The position numbers and the translations under genes are program-made. 64,000 nucleotides of DNA from Solidesulfovibrio aerotolerans. Lineage in GTDB: Bacteria > Desulfobacterota > Desulfovibrionia > Desulfovibrionales > Desulfovibrionaceae. Of this stretch, positions 9,223-37,003 are shown in pieces. Numbering within the stretch: position 1 is the first letter of the stretch; every line of letters begins with the position of its first letter. The notes under the pieces are model-generated. The model ran no database searches and was not told where the DNA came from. It saw only the letters and a list, made by a program, of their open reading frames with translations. The stretch spans positions 1-64,000 of the forward strand of contig NZ_WVUD01000024.1 in the NCBI RefSeq assembly GCF_009856865.1, in the 5' to 3' direction.

Positions 9223-10347
9223 TTATGCAAGTTCAGGTAACAAACCGACAGCACGTTCTTTTTCTCCGGCAAGACAATGATAGTAGTGACTTGTTGTCGT
9301 TGAAATCATTGAATGCCCAAGAAGTTTTGATACTGCTGCCAAGTCTGCACCTTTACTCAACATGGTTGTCGCAAAGAGGTGTCTAAGGTCATACATCCTG
9401 ACAGGGTAAGTAATCCCTGCCCGTTCACATGCTCTTCTAAATCCTTTGCGAATCATTCCAACCTGTTTGCCTCTGTACTCAATCACGAATCCAGCCTGAG
9501 ATTGAGCTCTTTTCTCCTTCATCTTCTCCAGAAGAGTTGATGCAATGGGCACAGACCGATAAGTCTTGGTTTTACTCGCATATATTCGGGCGATGCCTTT
9601 CTCGAAATCAATGTGTTCCCATCGCAGAGCAAGGAGTTCAGATTCACCAGGTCGAGTCCCCAAGCTGAAGCATACCTCCATAGCCCATCGAGCATGAGGT
9701 TCAGCACATTCCATAATTCTCTTGACGTCATCGACGGTAAGTTGGACCTCTCGCTGCTTCTCTTTTGATTTTCTTCTGCCAGTCATGGGGTTTACCTTGG
9801 TAAGATCCATGGTGACACCGAAATTGAAGATTGCATTGACGTAGTCCCCATACCGGTTCACGGTCATCTGGGTTCGGGGCCGTTTTTGTTTCCCATTTGT
9901 CTCCTGGAAAAACCGAATGAACGGCACCATGTCCCCTATGTAGGTCATTTCATTCACAACTCTGTCGCCGATGAGGGGATTGAACTGGTTCTTGATCATT
10001 TTTGCAAGTTTTGAGGTGTTTTTTTCGGTGCGACCAGAAACCTTGAGATGTTCAAGGTATTTTGAAGTGAGTTCCCGAAATGTCATACCCACCGATTGTT
10101 GAACACCTATGGTCGGATAGGTATTTTCCTGAATCACCAATGCCGGTTCAGTTGAAGTATAGGTGATCACCTGTGGCGATATCGGAGGAGTAAGCCGCCC
10201 TACTCCACTCGGTTCCTTAACAGCAGTATTAAATTGTTCTGCCAGGGCAGCTGCTTCATCACCTCTACCAAAAGACTTATCCCGTCTTTTACCATTCTCA
10301 TCATGATAAAAGACCATCCATCGTCCATCTCTTTGATAGACGCCCAT
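9223..10347 (-). CDS. Tyrosine recombinase (integrase of the element)
   Basis: 374 residues from the ATG at 10347, which has GGAGG six bases upstream. N-terminal Arm-like segment (MGVYQRDGRWMVFYHDENGK), SAM-like core-binding domain about 90-190, catalytic domain about 200-370 with Arg in SLGTRPGES, Lys in SKTKTYRSVP, YDLRHLFAT (Arg and His), LGHSMIST, and the nucleophile Tyr in SHYYH. The first box position is Tyr instead of His, common in phage-type integrases. Being the full-length recombinase next to the left att, it is the best candidate for inserting the element into tRNA-Thr. Confidence 0.9.
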   Translation of the reverse strand: MGVYQRDGRWMVFYHDENGKRRDKSFGRGDEAAALAEQFNTAVKEPSGVGRLTPPISPQVITYTSTEPALVIQENTYPTIGVQQSVGMTFRELTSKYLEHLKVSGRTEKNTSKLAKMIKNQFNPLIGDRVVNEMTYIGDMVPFIRFFQETNGKQKRPRTQMTVNRYGDYVNAIFNFGVTMDLTKVNPMTGRRKSKEKQREVQLTVDDVKRIMECAEPHARWAMEVCFSLGTRPGESELLALRWEHIDFEKGIARIYASKTKTYRSVPIASTLLEKMKEKRAQSQAGFVIEYRGKQVGMIRKGFRRACERAGITYPVRMYDLRHLFATTMLSKGADLAAVSKLLGHSMISTTTSHYYHCLAGEKERAVGLLPELA

Positions 10348-10449
10348 AAACACCTCCAAAGTGTAGTATGTGACTTAATTTTTGTAGATTTTAAGTAGTC
10401 GGTCGAATAATATCAGCAATTCTCAATGAAGCATTCAAAATGTGATCAA

Positions 10450-10482: not shown

Positions 10483-11040
10483 TTAGATAATGTTCAGTAA
10501 AATTTCTTCTACTTCCTCCTCTTGAACCCCCAGATATCTTCGAGTAATCGAAGGACTGGAATGGTTTAATCTTTTTGCGAGGACTTCCCATGAAACACCA
10601 AAGGTCTTTCTCTGATGATAAGTCCAGGTTTTTCGCAGCGAATGTGCTCCAAAATTACCTTTAAGATTAACTGATTCAGTCCACCGCTTGACATATTTTG
10701 TCACTGCGAAGGTTGTTAAAGGGTAATTGCTGCCTTTTCTGCTTTTGAACAGAAAATGATCAGAATCATCCCTTACGGTTCGTAAATACGAATCAAGAGC
10801 AGATTTAATCTCCTTATTCAAGATGAAGACATTTTCTTTACCTGTCTTCTTCTCGCGCAAGGTTATCCGTTCTCCAACTTTGATGTCCTTTACATCACTG
10901 ATTTTTAATGCAAGTAAATCTTGGACACGGAGGCCAGAGTTGCAACCCAGGACAAAGAGTAGTTTGTCACGAGGATTGTCACTCAGGATCTTTTTGATAC
11001 TCTTGATAGTTTTGAGGTCTATGATAGGTTCAACCTTCAT
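10483..11040 (-). CDS. Short tyrosine recombinase, catalytic domain only
   Basis: 185 residues from the ATG at 11040 (GGAGG five bases upstream). It consists almost entirely of the catalytic domain: Arg in SGLRVQDLL, Lys in KKTGKENVF, HSLRKT, LNHSSPSIT and the nucleophile Tyr in RRYLG. The N-terminal core-binding domain of XerC/D-type enzymes is missing, as in small phage and integron-like recombinases. All catalytic positions are kept, so it may be active, perhaps in resolving element dimers or as an excision factor. It sits upstream of and in line with the main integrase. Confidence 0.82.
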   Translation of the reverse strand: MKVEPIIDLKTIKSIKKILSDNPRDKLLFVLGCNSGLRVQDLLALKISDVKDIKVGERITLREKKTGKENVFILNKEIKSALDSYLRTVRDDSDHFLFKSRKGSNYPLTTFAVTKYVKRWTESVNLKGNFGAHSLRKTWTYHQRKTFGVSWEVLAKRLNHSSPSITRRYLGVQEEEVEEILLNII

Positions 11041-11173
11041 CTTTCCCTCCAATTCCCAGTTTTAGTTCAGGGACATTGAAAACGGACATACAAATTGCCC
11101 CTTCAAGGATACCCCTCGAGGGACTCGGCAATAACCATTTAAATTTCTTCAATAAATCCATTCCTAATTCCCC

Positions 11174-11314: not shown

Positions 11315-11692
11315 TCACACCTTGGTCAGAATGATCATTTCATTCTCAACCGAGACAGAGAATTCATCTCCTTCGGTAATGACAAGACCTTGTAAATCAA
11401 GGCTCTTCAGGTAAAGCTTGAGTTCAAACTTGTTGTTCACCTTCGGCCTTCTCGAGTTCTTCAGGTATAAACCCTTGACCTCGTAGAATGTCCTGTCATC
11501 GCTCATCAGCTTTAAAACGTATTGCTTCAAAGTCTGGCGATGAGTGATACCCATCTTAACCATGATATCCGATGCATCCATATTGGTAGTGATGCACTCG
11601 CGGAGGATCGAAGGATTGTACTTCGACTCTACCTTCTTCTTTTCAGAAACCTCTTGAACGTCGCCAGATGTGTTATCCGTCTTCTTGCTCAT
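11315..11692 (-). CDS. Small protein, possible AbrB/SpoVT-like DNA-binding C-terminus
   Basis: 125 residues, AGGAG before the ATG. Residues about 30-65 have a helix-turn-helix feel (SDIMVKMGITHRQTLKQYVL). The C-terminal GLVITEGDEFSVSVENEMI followed by ILTKV resembles the swapped-hairpin AbrB/MazE motif (GLKEGDxVxVxxxDGxIxL). Such proteins are transition-state or antitoxin-type regulators. No toxin gene is adjacent. It is a single-gene unit with its own strong terminator. Assignment is a motif-level guess. Confidence 0.45.
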   Translation of the reverse strand: MSKKTDNTSGDVQEVSEKKKVESKYNPSILRECITTNMDASDIMVKMGITHRQTLKQYVLKLMSDDRTFYEVKGLYLKNSRRPKVNNKFELKLYLKSLDLQGLVITEGDEFSVSVENEMIILTKV

Positions 11693-11766
11693 ACAAGCTC
11701 CTTGGTTTAGGTTGGTTATTAATTTCTCTATTGGTCAGTAGAATGTTCAAGATATTATGGTAATAA

Positions 11767-11983
11767 GCTATTCAGACTGGTTTTGCGCAAGATTAAGATG
11801 ATCATCCCGGGGCCAAAAACGTGAATTGGTGCCAGGATCAATTCTCCTGGGTTTTCGGTCACGGGGGACAGTAAACCATAGGGCAAGCCCCAAACGGCCC
11901 AGGACGGGGCGTATATAGCCCTGAATTTCTGGTGCCTGGGGGAGTGGATCGGTGCCGGGGTCAAAGGGGAGAGCTATTCAGAT
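11767..11983. repeat. GC-rich mosaic insert with inverted repeats
   Basis: A GC-rich patch in an AT-rich desert, bordered by GCTATTCAGA at both sides (11769 and 11973). It contains CCAGGA/TCCTGG and GCCCC/GGGGC hairpins and the repeated motif GGTGCCAGGATCAA / GGTGCCGGGGTCAA near its ends. A related GACACCGGGGTCAG heads both 71-bp repeats at 13.1-13.4 kb. This looks like a REP-type or miniature mobile sequence; no transposase gene is inside. Confidence 0.4.
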
Positions 11984-12000
11984 CAAATTCTGAAACAAGA

Positions 12001-12030
12001 AAAGGACCAAGCCCGAAGGCAAGGTCCTTT
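12001..12030 (-). terminator. Intrinsic terminator ending the structured region
   Basis: AAAGGACC and GGTCCTTT pair, with an inner GCC-UUCG-GGC on the minus strand, followed by TTTTCTTG. The extra-stable UUCG tetraloop in the minus sense sets the likely direction of transcription of the region above it. Confidence 0.75.
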
Positions 12031-12770
12031 AATTTAGAAACGTAGCTTGCCGCCGACAATGGTGATCATGACCCACCACAGCCGGCGACAATTAGAGGAT
12101 CGAATGAATCGTTGCCGATCCAAGCGTCCTTAACAACTCAACGGACGGTTTTCCCGTATTGAGCTGAAGCGAGAGATATTTTGTTATATATTATAAGTAT
12201 ATTAAGCTAGTCTTGATTCGTTTAAAGTCACAACAAACAGTCACATCTTAAACAGTCTACATTAGTCGAGTATGTTTTCAAGACATATAAATAATCTACA
12301 AACATTTTTTCTCTCGCTGTATCCCTTACGGATACGCAGCCATTCTCACTGAAGATTAACATCTCCAATGCTTTTGCTATAAATAGCATCCAGTGAGAAC
12401 TTCCCTTGGTTTAGGTCAAGTCTATGTAAAGACCGTCCCGAACCTAATCGCTTACGTATGAATAGAAGATTTTGATTCTTCTGAACCGTTTAATTCGGTA
12501 AACTTCAGTTTGCCATGAACTTCGTTCATCATACGCGCCACCTTGGTTTCTTCATGATAATCATGAATACGGGCCAGCCTTCTAGTCTCAATCCCTTTCA
12601 ACAACTGAATCACTTCATATTGTCTAGATATTGCTCAAATACTCTTGTTCGATGGAGCCGACAAGTAGCTTTGAACTTTGAGCCAATTTTATTTTTTTGA
12701 CTTTACAGATTATTTAGAAAATCTGTTGCATTGACTTGCATCAACACTTGACCAGCGACCTAATGCAAGG
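12001..12770 (-). ncRNA. Candidate large structured RNA with terminal hairpin
   Basis: Successive hairpins can be drawn by eye: 12001-12030 (GGACC stem with a UUCG loop and T-run on the minus strand), 12047-12091, 12097-12121, 12137-12163 (two stacked stems with a GAAA-type loop), 12316-12340 (GUAA loop), 12343-12399 (perfect 9 bp, with an inner hairpin), 12411-12447 (with inner GTCT/AGAC), 12464-12482, 12485-12499, 12515-12529, 12551-12567 and 12705-12726. Loop types and the terminator favour the minus strand. No protein of normal length is encoded; a 53-codon frame from a GTG at 12613 to TAA 12452 (ARIHDYHEETKVARMMNEV) is the main alternative, i.e. a decayed gene. I cannot match a known RNA family. 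Confidence 0.35.
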
Positions 12771-13122
12771 CACCCATGGCACTTTAACTACGCTATTTTG
12801 TTTGTGTGATTATTGATACGTCTTGAAACAATTGTCGACCTTAGTAGACTGTTCGTTTTTAGATGTGATCTGCTGAAATTCGTAAAAAATCTTCATGATC
12901 GCATAAATATACAATAATATTAAGTATTAATTTCTCTTTACTGCATGAGAATATTGCCGAATAAACTATGCAGTACCATCCCTCCTTGTATTGTAGCTAG
13001 CGACAGATGTCTAACTTAAAGGTAAGTATCCAATTAAGGAACTTATCTAATGTCAATCTTTGAAAAAGAGAGGATGCTCAATCATGGATTTGCACCATCT
13101 CTTAGTCTTAAGTTATATCAGG
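12771..13122. other. Gene-free stretch between structured region and direct repeats
   Basis: About 350 AT-rich bases with short hairpins only (for example GACAGATGTC near 13002). I see no coding potential, tRNA or clear promoter here. Confidence 0.4.
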
Positions 13123-13193
13123 ATTTTGAGGACACCGGGGTCAGTTTGGTATATCAGTTTTACTTCTTAAATTTTAAATATTATAAATATATA
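13123..13193. repeat. 71-bp direct repeat downstream of the replicase, copy 1
   Basis: Identical for 71 bases to 13374-13444. It begins ATTTTGAGGACACCGGGGTC and ends in an AT-only stretch (ATTATAAATATATA). The repeats lie 3' of the replicase gene, where plasmids of the ColE2 type keep their origin, so a role as replication origin or iterons is possible. Confidence 0.7.
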
Positions 13194-13373
13194 AAATGTT
13201 AAGGCAGTTATAATAGTTTTAATTAATATATTTAAACATACTACCAGTATTACATATATAATATCTAAAACAAATACAATAAGTATTAAAGTTACAATGC
13301 ATAGCAAAAATTCAAAGTTTATATTGTATATTAATTTCTTCTGGAGACACAATTTAATTATAACTTTGTTATT

Positions 13374-13444
13374 ATTTTGAGGACACCGGGGTCAGTTTGG
13401 TATATCAGTTTTACTTCTTAAATTTTAAATATTATAAATATATA
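13374..13444. repeat. 71-bp direct repeat downstream of the replicase, copy 2
   Basis: Second copy, 251 bases from the first, with unrelated AT-rich sequence between. The stop of the replicase is 127 bases further on. Nothing else that looks like a gene is found from 13194 to 13570. Confidence 0.7.
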
Positions 13445-13570
13445 TACGATTATGACAAATACATTTATAATTTATAATAAGATACAAACCAAAAAAGATA
13501 TGTACTAATTTTATACCTATTGAACTAATTATGTAAGTTAAAAAAATATTTTACATATAATACACATATT

Positions 13571-15418
13571 TTATTTTGTTATACTAAGCTGCAATTGCTT
13601 ACTTTTAAAGTAACTATCAATCATATCATTCCTCAGCCGAATCGTATTCTTAGATAGACCGGTTACTTTAACTAGGTTTCGGTTGCTTATAATCATCCCT
13701 TTTCCCATCAATTCATCGACGGCATTCAATATTAATGAGTCATTGTTAAACATTTTAGTCTTATGGGTATGCTTAGTACCAAGGGCTTTGTTTTCTTTCT
13801 GAAGTTTAGAACGCTCATCATCGCTTATATTTTTTTGTATAGGCTGAAGACCCATGACTCCAAAGTTCTTTATAACTCTACCATATCGCTTGTCATCACG
13901 CTTCGGCCATATCCACTCTGAAACAAATTTAGTCTTCTCATGAATTACATAATTTTGCATCGGACCTTTGTCTGGCCAATGCAGAGGTATTGTATCGGAA
14001 TTATATTTATTTAAATAAGCATACATGTCTTGTTTAAAAGAATTTATATCAAAATGTTTCTTGACATTAAGAAATCCCCATTTTCTAGCTATGTTAAACA
14101 ATTCAGGATCACGCCCAGCATAGATAGAACTTCTTGTTGCTTCAAAGTACTCTTTAATTGATGGCAAATTTACGAAGCTAGCAAGTTCTTTCAAACTGTA
14201 AGCTTTATCTACCCATGTTGTCGCCCAAGAGTTGGAGAATGGATTTTTTATTGATGAATGATTGTAAGATCGGTCAGCGTTAAGCTGTTGATCGTAAGCA
14301 AACCTGATAGCTTTGAAATAAGCAACTGGTTTCTTTAGAATTGCAGTCTTATTATATTCACATGGCCAATAGACTGGTGTCGTAAGTTCATAAACTATAT
14401 GAGATCGACCATTATGAGTATTGACAATAGTTATCGTTGGTTCGGGAAGTTTACAGGCCTTCCATGCAGAAGCCGAGTCAGTATAATCTAAATCAAAGCA
14501 CATATAGGAACGTCTTGACTTAGGAAACATCAAGTAGTTACTGTTTTTAAAAGCTTCATTAGGGTAGGTTGCACGTTCAATCTCTTTTCCGAATCCCCAC
14601 CAGACAATGTCATCGAAATGATCCTTAAACCTTCTTTGGGGTGAAGAGTCTTCATAACCATCGTCTTCTTCAAAATCGGGAGTCTCATAGTCATTGTAAA
14701 TCGGTTTAATATTATAATTCACTTCATCAGGTTCAATGCCTTTTGAATTACTTGGTCTTGCATTACTATCCGCGAACGATTCTTTTCTACACAAGTCTAG
14801 AACCCATTCCGGTGCATCCGCGATAGGCAAGTTATCCTGGATAGTATAAAACTGCATAGTGACAGGATGGATTGAACCTGGCGCGACCACTTGACTTCTA
14901 CAACCAAGAATATCAAAAGCTACAACTTGCTTCTTAATACCACTACAAACACTAATCTCGCCCCATTCTTGGTATCTTCCGTATGTAAACTGATCTTTTG
15001 GATATTTGAAATAATAATGAGGTTTGCCACTTCCAGTTTTTACTGTAAAAGTATTCGTGTATGCAGAATCGATATGATGGTTTCGAATATATTGATCGAA
15101 TAGTTTGATATTGTCCACATCGAGTACTATTATACCACTGGCAAGACCGCAGGCTATGCCTGCATTGTTGCTGATGTAGTCAAAAGCCTCGAACTCTTTT
15201 TTTGTGTAACAAGCTTCAGTCCAACCTCTTTTTATCGGGGCTTTAGCAACTTTAGTTTTTGTTGAATATGTACGAACTGGGATTAAGGAAAATATTTCAG
15301 AAAGTGCACTGTAAATATCAAGACGAGCAAAGTCATCAAAATCTTTGAGATTATTGATTGCTTCTACGAGTTCAATCGGAAGTGGTGTCTGGCTCTCATT
15401 AGTACTGTTCTCTGACAT
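13571..15418 (-). CDS. Replication initiator fusing a prim-pol domain to a plasmid replicase
   Basis: 615 residues. Residues 46-215 match a bifunctional primase/polymerase (AEP) domain: IIVLDVDN (Asp100, Asp102), SGKPHYY (His134), FDILGCRSQVVAPGSIHP (Asp169, His184). Residues about 270-415 form a second AEP-type unit of the plasmid replicase family (ColE2 Rep-like): MCFDLDYTDSASAW (Asp309, Asp311), NTHNGRSHIVYEL (His340), then NHSSIKNPFSNSW. Residues 434-449 (AGRDPELFNIARKWGF) match the PriCT-1 helix bundle, and 577-600 is a helix-turn-helix. So two primase modules are in one chain, each with its metal-binding acids. It probably starts element replication with the repeats downstream as origin. 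Domain calls are by eye. Confidence 0.78.
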   Translation of the reverse strand: MSENSTNESQTPLPIELVEAINNLKDFDDFARLDIYSALSEIFSLIPVRTYSTKTKVAKAPIKRGWTEACYTKKEFEAFDYISNNAGIACGLASGIIVLDVDNIKLFDQYIRNHHIDSAYTNTFTVKTGSGKPHYYFKYPKDQFTYGRYQEWGEISVCSGIKKQVVAFDILGCRSQVVAPGSIHPVTMQFYTIQDNLPIADAPEWVLDLCRKESFADSNARPSNSKGIEPDEVNYNIKPIYNDYETPDFEEDDGYEDSSPQRRFKDHFDDIVWWGFGKEIERATYPNEAFKNSNYLMFPKSRRSYMCFDLDYTDSASAWKACKLPEPTITIVNTHNGRSHIVYELTTPVYWPCEYNKTAILKKPVAYFKAIRFAYDQQLNADRSYNHSSIKNPFSNSWATTWVDKAYSLKELASFVNLPSIKEYFEATRSSIYAGRDPELFNIARKWGFLNVKKHFDINSFKQDMYAYLNKYNSDTIPLHWPDKGPMQNYVIHEKTKFVSEWIWPKRDDKRYGRVIKNFGVMGLQPIQKNISDDERSKLQKENKALGTKHTHKTKMFNNDSLILNAVDELMGKGMIISNRNLVKVTGLSKNTIRLRNDMIDSYFKSKQLQLSITK

Positions 15419-15637: not shown

Positions 15638-16552
15638 CTAGGGATAGATTGTGTCAAAACCATTCGCTTTGTGTGCAGCTCTGACATGATCCTGAAGTGT
15701 AACGAAATAATGAGTATTCACAAGTTGCCTACAAAATGTAGCGTTGTGTCCGTAAAGGTCTCTGTAGGTAATGCTGAGTTCATTTTTAATGTATTGCTCA
15801 ACCTCTGGCCTGTAGTCATAGTCTTCGAAATATATTAGTTTATTGTCTTCTCTGTCTGGCTCGCTATCTCTGAAACGAAGCATAATCTCTGCCTTATCTG
15901 GATTGTATGGATAATTCCAAAAGTATACATACCCAAATTTTTGAGCTTGTGCCCAATTACTGCTGTCGTTGTAATCAATTGGCAAGTCTTTCAGTCGATT
16001 GTAGGAACTAACTCCCAGAAGATGAACTTTCTTTCCTGCATCCTTAATACGTTTCACAATTCCACCAACTACAAAATCATCTTTTTTATCTTCTGACATG
16101 CCCAGTGATATTATTTCATAGTTTTTAAGGTACTCACCGACTTCGTCTGTGTTCAATCCTCTGTAATCATGCACTACAGGTACAAGATTTTTAATGCCTT
16201 TTTCTTCAAGTTGTTTTTGACACTTGCAATTGTCGTCATATCCTGTTGCTTTAAAGTTCTTGTCAAAGTTGAAGATAAAATCAAATTGATTGTTAAAAGT
16301 CTGGCAATAGCAAGCAAAGCCGTCGAGGTCTATTTTTTCACGCAGAGATTCTTTCGCGTAGTTATAAGTAAACGCGCCACTGTCAAGAATTAGGCTATTA
16401 ATTTTGTCACGATGTGTTACGATCATGTCATAATAATCGCCTTTTACTGTACCATAAGACAAAAGAACATTTAGCTCAGCTTCCGGCCTCATCTCCTTGT
16501 ATTTAAGTAATACATTCAGATCGAAAGAAGACAAATAAATCTTGATGCTCAT
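15638..16552 (-). CDS. TGT/DpdA-like TIM-barrel protein
   Basis: 304 residues. The order of motifs matches phage and element members of the tRNA-guanine transglycosylase superfamily: SLILDSGAFTYN (the DSGGF-like strand with an acidic catalyst), FDFIFNFDKNF, NLVPVVHDYRG, ISLGMSED, and HLLGVSSYNRLKDLPIDYND running into SSNWAQAQKFG, where DSSNW corresponds to the DSTSW-type nucleophile strand. TGT swaps guanine for a 7-deazaguanine in tRNA, and DpdA relatives do so in DNA. No preQ0 biosynthesis genes are here. Its ATG overlaps the stop of the upstream gene by 4 bp, so it is coupled to the replication operon. Substrate unknown. Confidence 0.6.
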   Translation of the reverse strand: MSIKIYLSSFDLNVLLKYKEMRPEAELNVLLSYGTVKGDYYDMIVTHRDKINSLILDSGAFTYNYAKESLREKIDLDGFACYCQTFNNQFDFIFNFDKNFKATGYDDNCKCQKQLEEKGIKNLVPVVHDYRGLNTDEVGEYLKNYEIISLGMSEDKKDDFVVGGIVKRIKDAGKKVHLLGVSSYNRLKDLPIDYNDSSNWAQAQKFGYVYFWNYPYNPDKAEIMLRFRDSEPDREDNKLIYFEDYDYRPEVEQYIKNELSITYRDLYGHNATFCRQLVNTHYFVTLQDHVRAAHKANGFDTIYP

Positions 16553-36927: not shown

Positions 36928-37003
36928 TGGAGCCAGCATGGAGACTCGAACTCCAGACCTGCTGATTACGAATCAGCTGCTCTACCAACTGAGCTATGCT
37001 GGC
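36928..37003 (-). tRNA. tRNA-Thr (anticodon CGT)
   Basis: 76 bases including an encoded CCA. Acceptor GCCAGCA pairs with TGCTGGC; D arm GCTC/GAGC; anticodon arm GCTGA-TTCGTAA-TCAGC with CGT in the loop, reading ACG; T arm TCTGG-AGTTCGAGTC-type loop. The last 45 bases are the attachment core repeated at 7723-7767. The gene marks the sharp change from AT-rich accessory to GC-rich core DNA. Confidence 0.95.

Follow-up and report, generated by a model that had tools for sequence, protein, structure and literature searches.

The minus strand of positions 12001-12793 encodes a large structured RNA with a UUCG terminator at its end. All positions refer to the window, the 64,000-nucleotide stretch of Solidesulfovibrio aerotolerans DNA (contig NZ_WVUD01000024.1) that was analysed. 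The RNA is probably a non-coding transcription unit, the body of which is a ribozyme of the group II intron type without an intron-encoded protein (IEP). Our best reading is that it represents a group II ribozyme lineage that is independent of reverse transcriptase and is kept as a non-coding gene of the mobile elements that carry it in sulfate-reducing bacteria. No published description of the RNA family was found in the open-licence literature, searched at the level of the beginnings of the abstracts.

Folding of the RNA and its relatives

When the minus strand of 11990-12790 (801 nt) was folded, the minimum free energy was −258.2 kcal/mol and lay well below that of 20 dinucleotide shuffles (−198.9 ± 7.1, z −8.4). 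The plus strand of the same region gave −210.1 (z −7.1). With RNAalifold, 12 aligned copies reached −395.2 in the minus sense versus −309.9 in the plus sense. Across the 241 consensus pairs, 340 G-U cells were counted versus 29 A-C cells, which favours the minus strand, with the consensus structure itself derived in the minus sense. The preliminary description had claimed a structured RNA on the minus strand, lying in a 1.9-kb gene desert of a mobile element, and had proposed shuffled controls, a search for homologues and a covariation test. The z-score, the homologues and the covariation all agree with this claim, the gene-free gap runs from 11693 to 13570 and the RNA sits on a mobile element. 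The feature is real but had been drawn too short: its closing helix begins at 12794/12793, and the coupled arm on the 5' side extends to 12937.

Fourteen genomes of the genus were searched with blastn, which returned 12 full-length copies including that of the window, the other 11 at 69-74% identity, and many diverged copies besides. Most of the diverged copies were lengthened to long matches by a profile search. The 58 loci were reduced by containment to 41 distinct copies, i.e., the window's and 40 relatives, with profile E-values of 2e-42 or better. They were aligned with E-INS-i and show pairwise identities of 43-99% with a mean of 54%. An intrinsic terminator with a UUCG loop and a U tract (11996-12030, minus strand) was recognised from the sequence and is present in all 12 aligned full-length copies, in line with the terminator first described at 12001-12030.

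For wider searches a covariance model, R1, was built from 22 sequences; it covers only 162 positions in the region of the exon-binding site EBS1. Three loci (L011, L012 and L025) had been dropped from a training set of 25, and the window had replaced L001. Within the genus, R1 matched 10 of the 14 genomes, with as many as 13 copies in a single genome. In the class, 15 of 348 genomes were matched, which all belong to one family and four genera, and in a sample of the phylum two of 395, both in the same family. Outside the host family no match was found among the 348 class genomes and the 395-genome phylum sample; distant relatives could be missed, because R1 is short, was built from few sequences and was run with stricter filters in both wide searches. 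The RNA of the window had no match in the phage and plasmid collections, the RNA of L020 had none in the plasmids, and no viral contig was found with two search patterns. Partial RNA matches lie near contig ends at L005 and L006 (G000:C133 and C101), so the draft genome G000 probably holds more copies than the six found with R1.

Covariation was analysed in the 41-copy alignment with our own G-test with APC, not with R-scape, against 12 simulated alignments in which the substitutions of each column were re-placed on the tree, which makes the null phylogeny-aware. At E<=0.05, 14 column pairs were obtained, each at least 90% complementary. This is also true of the 18 pairs at E<=0.5. A non-complementary pair first appeared at E 0.75; of the 24 pairs at E<=1, 21 are complementary. 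The covarying pairs are located in domain I, in the domain II/III region and in domain V, and domain VI follows at E 0.42.

Several of the stems that had been noted at the outset (12343-12399, 12551-12567 and 12137-12163) lie within conserved or covarying helices. Two others can form in the window copy, yet differ from the pairing that is conserved. In the case of the stem 12515-12529, the covarying partner of position 12529 is 12461 and that of 12521 is 12507, and the stem also overlaps a putative exon-binding site at 12518-12512. Within the stem 12411-12447, the covarying partners of positions 12442, 12435 and 12430 are 12547, 12575 and 12580, respectively. The suggestion that the short reading frames of the region are the remains of a gene was rejected, with frame 12452-12613 open in phase in three of the 41 copies and frame 12228-12389 in one.

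Domains of the group II type

The group II intron-like body (12096-12773) was delimited with the 41-copy alignment, its structure and the covariation; it starts with GUGCC and ends with domain VI. All features of the RNA described in the following lie on the minus strand. Domain I occupies approximately 12406-12773, as judged from the consensus structure and the covarying pairs 12615-12608, 12580-12430, 12575-12435, 12547-12442 and 12529-12461. It contains the putative EBS1, UCAUGGC, at 12512-12518. Its partner, the putative intron-binding site IBS1 with GCCAUGG at 12774-12780, forms the end of the 5' exon. The two pair at 7/7 positions in 34 of the 41 copies and at 6/7 in five, counted without a shuffle control; the exceptions are L101, with 3/7 in the alignment, and L002, which is cut by the contig end. 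Changes occur on both sides, and compensated variants (IBS1/EBS1) are GCCGUGG/UCACGGC, GCCACGG/UCGUGGU and GCUAUGG/UCAUAGC.

The region of domains II and III (12318-12405), assigned by position only, consists of a helix at 12399-12343 and a hairpin at 12339-12318 and begins with the conserved purine-rich CCAAGGGAAG. Domain IV (12169-12317) has a basal stem, GCGAGAGA/UCUCUCGC, around a sequence named arm B (12172-12304). The stretch from domain III to domain V measures 131-218 nt in the 41 copies and is too short for a reverse transcriptase.

Domain V (12134-12166) has an AGC triad at 12165-12163, a GAAAA pentaloop and a bulge of 2 nt, and shows covarying pairs at 12161-12139, 12160-12140 and 12157-12145. 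Its upper stem of 4 bp is wholly paired in 40 of the 41 copies, and the lower stem is paired at 8/8 positions in 27 copies, at seven in four and at six in ten. The two unpaired bases between the stems were placed by register. A GNRA tetraloop typically caps group II domain V. Such a loop occurs in none of the 41 copies, and all 41 have a pentaloop of the GNRNA type (GAAAA, GCAAA, GGAAA, GAAAU or GACAA). Pentaloops of this type can take a GNRA-like fold, as in lambda boxB. The triad is kept in every copy, as AGC in 31 and as CGC in ten, and these are the usual group II domain V triads as given in PMC12350094.

Domain VI (12096-12131) carries a bulged A at 12100, the putative branch point. An A is found at the branch position in 41 of 41 copies, and the surrounding stem varies with compensatory changes. 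The type I consensus shows this A as bulged; in type II it could pair with the opposite U instead, and 'bulged' is therefore firm for the other copies only. The body begins with GNGCY in all 40 copies that are not truncated at this point, and the group II consensus is GUGYG. Inspection by eye showed no AY that the copies share at a constant distance downstream of domain VI, and the 3' splice site was not located.

In the Rfam searches the only RNA gene of the window at gathering level was a tRNA (36931-37003). The RNA itself had no match at the gathering threshold, and a 3-kb stretch of the window searched with E-values up to 5 gave no more than three matches, all below threshold and to unrelated families. 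Neither any of 20 tested loci nor any place in the window's own genome reached the gathering score of 40 bits for RF00029, the model of group II intron domains V-VI. Just below this cut-off, RF00029 matched at the predicted place of domains V-VI in sister copies: L013 scored 39.9 bits (E 3.6e-5) and L020 34 bits, and 34 bits were recorded in another copy from the window's own genome. RF00029 did not match the window stretch and L029 even at lax thresholds, and the Rfam models of D1-D4 had no match in the stretches that were searched at lax thresholds.

It had at first been suggested that the RNA may be of the GOLLD, ROOL or OLE kind or a new class. Kinship with these or another of the catalogued large RNAs, which resemble it in size and mobile-element setting, is now hardly credible: Rfam gave no such match either at the gathering threshold or at lax E-values (window stretch and three loci), and group II hallmarks were found instead. 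The family is new, but it is of the group II intron kind, as indicated by domains V-VI, the EBS1-IBS1 pairing and the near-threshold RF00029 scores. With RF00029 introns it shares the domain V triad, the position of the bulge, the A at the branch position of domain VI, the order of the domains and EBS1-IBS1. It differs from them in its sub-threshold scores, the 4-bp tip with a GNRNA pentaloop, the GNGCY start, the unclear AY end and the missing IEP. A circularly permuted group II RNA was considered and rejected, as D5-D6 lie 3' of D1-D4. Since GNGCY is not quite GUGYG and no fixed 3' AY was found, we would class the RNA with the group II kind as a divergent variant and not as a standard member.

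These deviations can also be explained by a group II descendant that no longer splices and serves the element only as a structural or regulatory RNA. The unclear 3' splice consensus, the altered 5' end and the slightly sub-threshold Rfam scores would fit, and so would the non-coding flanks, which leave nothing obvious to splice. We regard this as rather unlikely, since the triad and the branch-position A are kept in all 41 copies despite a mean identity of 54%, which points to the needs of catalysis and not of a mere scaffold, and since EBS1 and IBS1, a feature related to catalysis, change in a compensated way.

Pairing of the flanking sequences

The body is enclosed by a helix of the flanks, P1. 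Its 5' strand, AGCGUAGUU at 12786-12794 on the side of the 5' exon, pairs with the 3' strand at 12039-12047, and the consensus structure places a 3' exon hairpin at 12048-12090. A core of 7 bp is conserved in the 12 copies, and other subfamilies have different, still complementary sequences at this place. In L020, L027, L072 and L093, P1 is 17-19 bp long, with all 100 shuffles at 13 or less. The 9 bp of the window do not beat the shuffles (maximum 11), and the same is true for most copies, so that what supports the short P1 is its conserved position.

Upstream of P1 lies the 5' arm A of about 120-140 nt (12799-12937 in the window). BLAST found RNA positions 487-619, i.e., arm B within domain IV, inverted and imperfectly complementary in arm A. 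Within the arms there is an inverted repeat of 46 nt with 78% identity. The complementarity of the arms beats all 300 dinucleotide shuffles in 11 of the 12 type I copies, with one tie, and reaches z>4 in 21 of the 41 copies, in two genera. A significant arm A is absent in the other 20, namely in 13 type II copies, one of them cut by a contig end, and in seven others, three of which are borderline with z 2.3-2.5. The most distant arms are no more alike than shuffled sequences, yet each fits its own partner. Judged from these sequences, the arms coevolve, either through compensation or through gene conversion. Arm A may compete with domain IV's basal stem, or it may be a very long pseudoknot.

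Near the outer end of arm A a conserved TAGACAGAAAT is found; inspection by eye of the sequence near it revealed no good −10 element of an upstream promoter. An 84-nt direct repeat, 93% identical, is located between the replicase gene and the RNA (13123-13206 and 13374-13457). A portion of this repeat, CTGATATACCAAAC, is also found upstream of several of the other copies.

We also considered that the inverted repeats act at the DNA level, as an origin or a recombination site, and that no RNA is involved. The position between the replicase and the recombinases would suit this, as would the A/B repeat with its weak strand asymmetry (82 G-U versus 60 A-C in 12 copies). For the core, such a function is very improbable in view of its 340 G-U versus 29 A-C cells, the terminator in register and the group II hallmarks. 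Arms A and B alone could act as DNA.

Gene neighbourhood, reverse transcriptases and the proposed role

Downstream of the RNA and on the same strand lies a gene for a 125-aa protein, c1 (11315-11692, minus strand), with N-terminal helices and C-terminal strands. It holds this position in 29 of 33 regions. The structural model of c1 is of moderate quality (pLDDT 74, pTM 0.48), and its Foldseek matches to AbrB/MazE were non-significant (E 0.7 or worse), so c1 is possibly weakly AbrB-like. It is followed on the minus strand by a 189-aa tyrosine recombinase that consists of the catalytic domain only (10483-11052, PF00589, E 7.8e-22) and by an integrase (9223-10359, PF00589, E 7.3e-28). A tyrosine recombinase of 180-245 aa is found downstream of the RNA in 29 of 33 regions. 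The upstream neighbour, also on the minus strand, is a replicase with Prim-Pol and Replicase domains (13571-15418, PF09250 and PF03090). In most of the 33 regions, the large upstream gene belongs to one of three clusters, i.e., Prim-Pol/Replicase, a DUF927 primase/helicase or one without a clear family match. In five of the regions it is oriented divergently, so that the RNA does not ride on the replicase transcript there.

The distances between the RNAs follow those between the c1 proteins (Mantel r 0.81) and those between the recombinases (r 0.60), values that were reached by none of 2000 permutations in either case. As the neighbours are also shared, the RNA, c1 and the recombinase look like one inherited module.

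Some further elements were observed in these regions. Between the RNA terminator and c1 (11800-11965) there is a GC-rich element of about 100 nt, which occurs at 15 other places in six other genomes of the genus with 72-88% identity. In G009 it stays with c1, about 2.7 kb away from the RNA, and is thus probably a control region of c1 or a recombination site. The gene at 15638-16552, beside the replicase, resembles the queuine tRNA-ribosyltransferase phrog_887 (E 7e-18), has no Pfam match and belongs to a cluster present in 17 of the 33 regions. A second, diverged c1-like gene was seen at L041:27-350, about 9 kb from the RNA.

Reverse transcriptase is the enzyme that group II introns normally depend on. 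The window's own genome gave no match to the RVT_1 model; among 14 control genomes, three matched. With this one Pfam model and partly draft genomes, one or more RVT_1 were found in seven of the 15 genomes that carry the RNA and none in the other eight, to which the genomes with 13, 6, 5 and 3 RNA copies belong. The genome with four reverse transcriptases carries one RNA copy. Given the high copy numbers in RVT_1-negative genomes, a resident machinery for retrotransposition does not account for the number of copies now present.

These data bear on the idea that the copies are ordinary introns without an open reading frame, mobilised in trans by the reverse transcriptase of another intron. Bacterial introns of this sort are nearly always accompanied by related IEP-bearing introns in the genome, according to PMC4424553, and seven of our 15 genomes would offer a source of the enzyme. 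We think this improbable: RVT_1 was not found in eight of the 15 genomes, among them those with 13, 6, 5 and 3 copies, the four-enzyme genome has a single copy, and the copies examined lie at the same place of the element and not at scattered targets. As an account of current mobility it is hard to sustain.

We return to the reading of a group II lineage without reverse transcriptase. A transcript from about 12940 to 11996 of the minus strand would fold as a group II ribozyme and perform splicing-type chemistry on its own short non-coding flanks, with branching at A12100 and attack near 12773/12774. The complementarity of the 5' arm and domain IV would, at a guess, gate folding or processing. 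The RNA may be kept for the role of its product in a control and integration module with c1 and the small recombinase, and not for retrotransposition, and its copies would spread as the element does, with no resident reverse transcriptase. The complete scenario is tentative, and we give it somewhat less than an even chance: a domesticated, self-processing group II lineage free of reverse transcriptase, in which the flank-domain IV duplex is a coevolving switch or tether and the product takes part in a control circuit of an AbrB-like protein and a recombinase.

Among described introns, C.te.I1 of Clostridium tetani comes close. In the accounts of PMC3919590 and PMC4424553 it has no IEP, its genome no IEP-related sequence and its D4 loop no similarity to protein, and introns lacking an open reading frame are rare in bacteria, C.te.I1 being the only one known as of 2015 whose genome has no IEP. 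C.te.I1 is known there from one locus, in the region of a surface-layer protein gene, with four alternative splicing reactions. In contrast, the family described here is multi-copy, and the non-coding unit in which it lies is linked to an integrative element. The permuted 'T-large' RNAs, as portrayed in PMC8637638, are similar in their length of about 900 nt, the lack of open reading frames, the group II domains and the extra flank helices and pseudoknots, but have D5-D6 before D1, whereas our family has the canonical order. Group IIC introns insert at terminators or attC hairpins (PMC4424553), and hairpins, a terminator and a tyrosine recombinase gene are also near our RNA. Unlike those introns, the family has no IEP, its hairpin arises from pairing of flank with flank, and the terminator is downstream.

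PMC8919778 surveyed 14,506 genomes with the Rfam domain V-VI model, at its own thresholds, and reports 888 introns that lack IEPs. In the literature on introns lacking an open reading frame, few are considered likely to have been overlooked, except where domain V departs from the known ones. The present family looks like such a case, because it has many copies, an atypical domain V just below the cut-off and, often, no reverse transcriptase that could be detected. It offers a natural, testable system for a ribozyme that persists without its protein, and such a protein-free step bears on the proposal that spliceosomal introns descend from group II introns.
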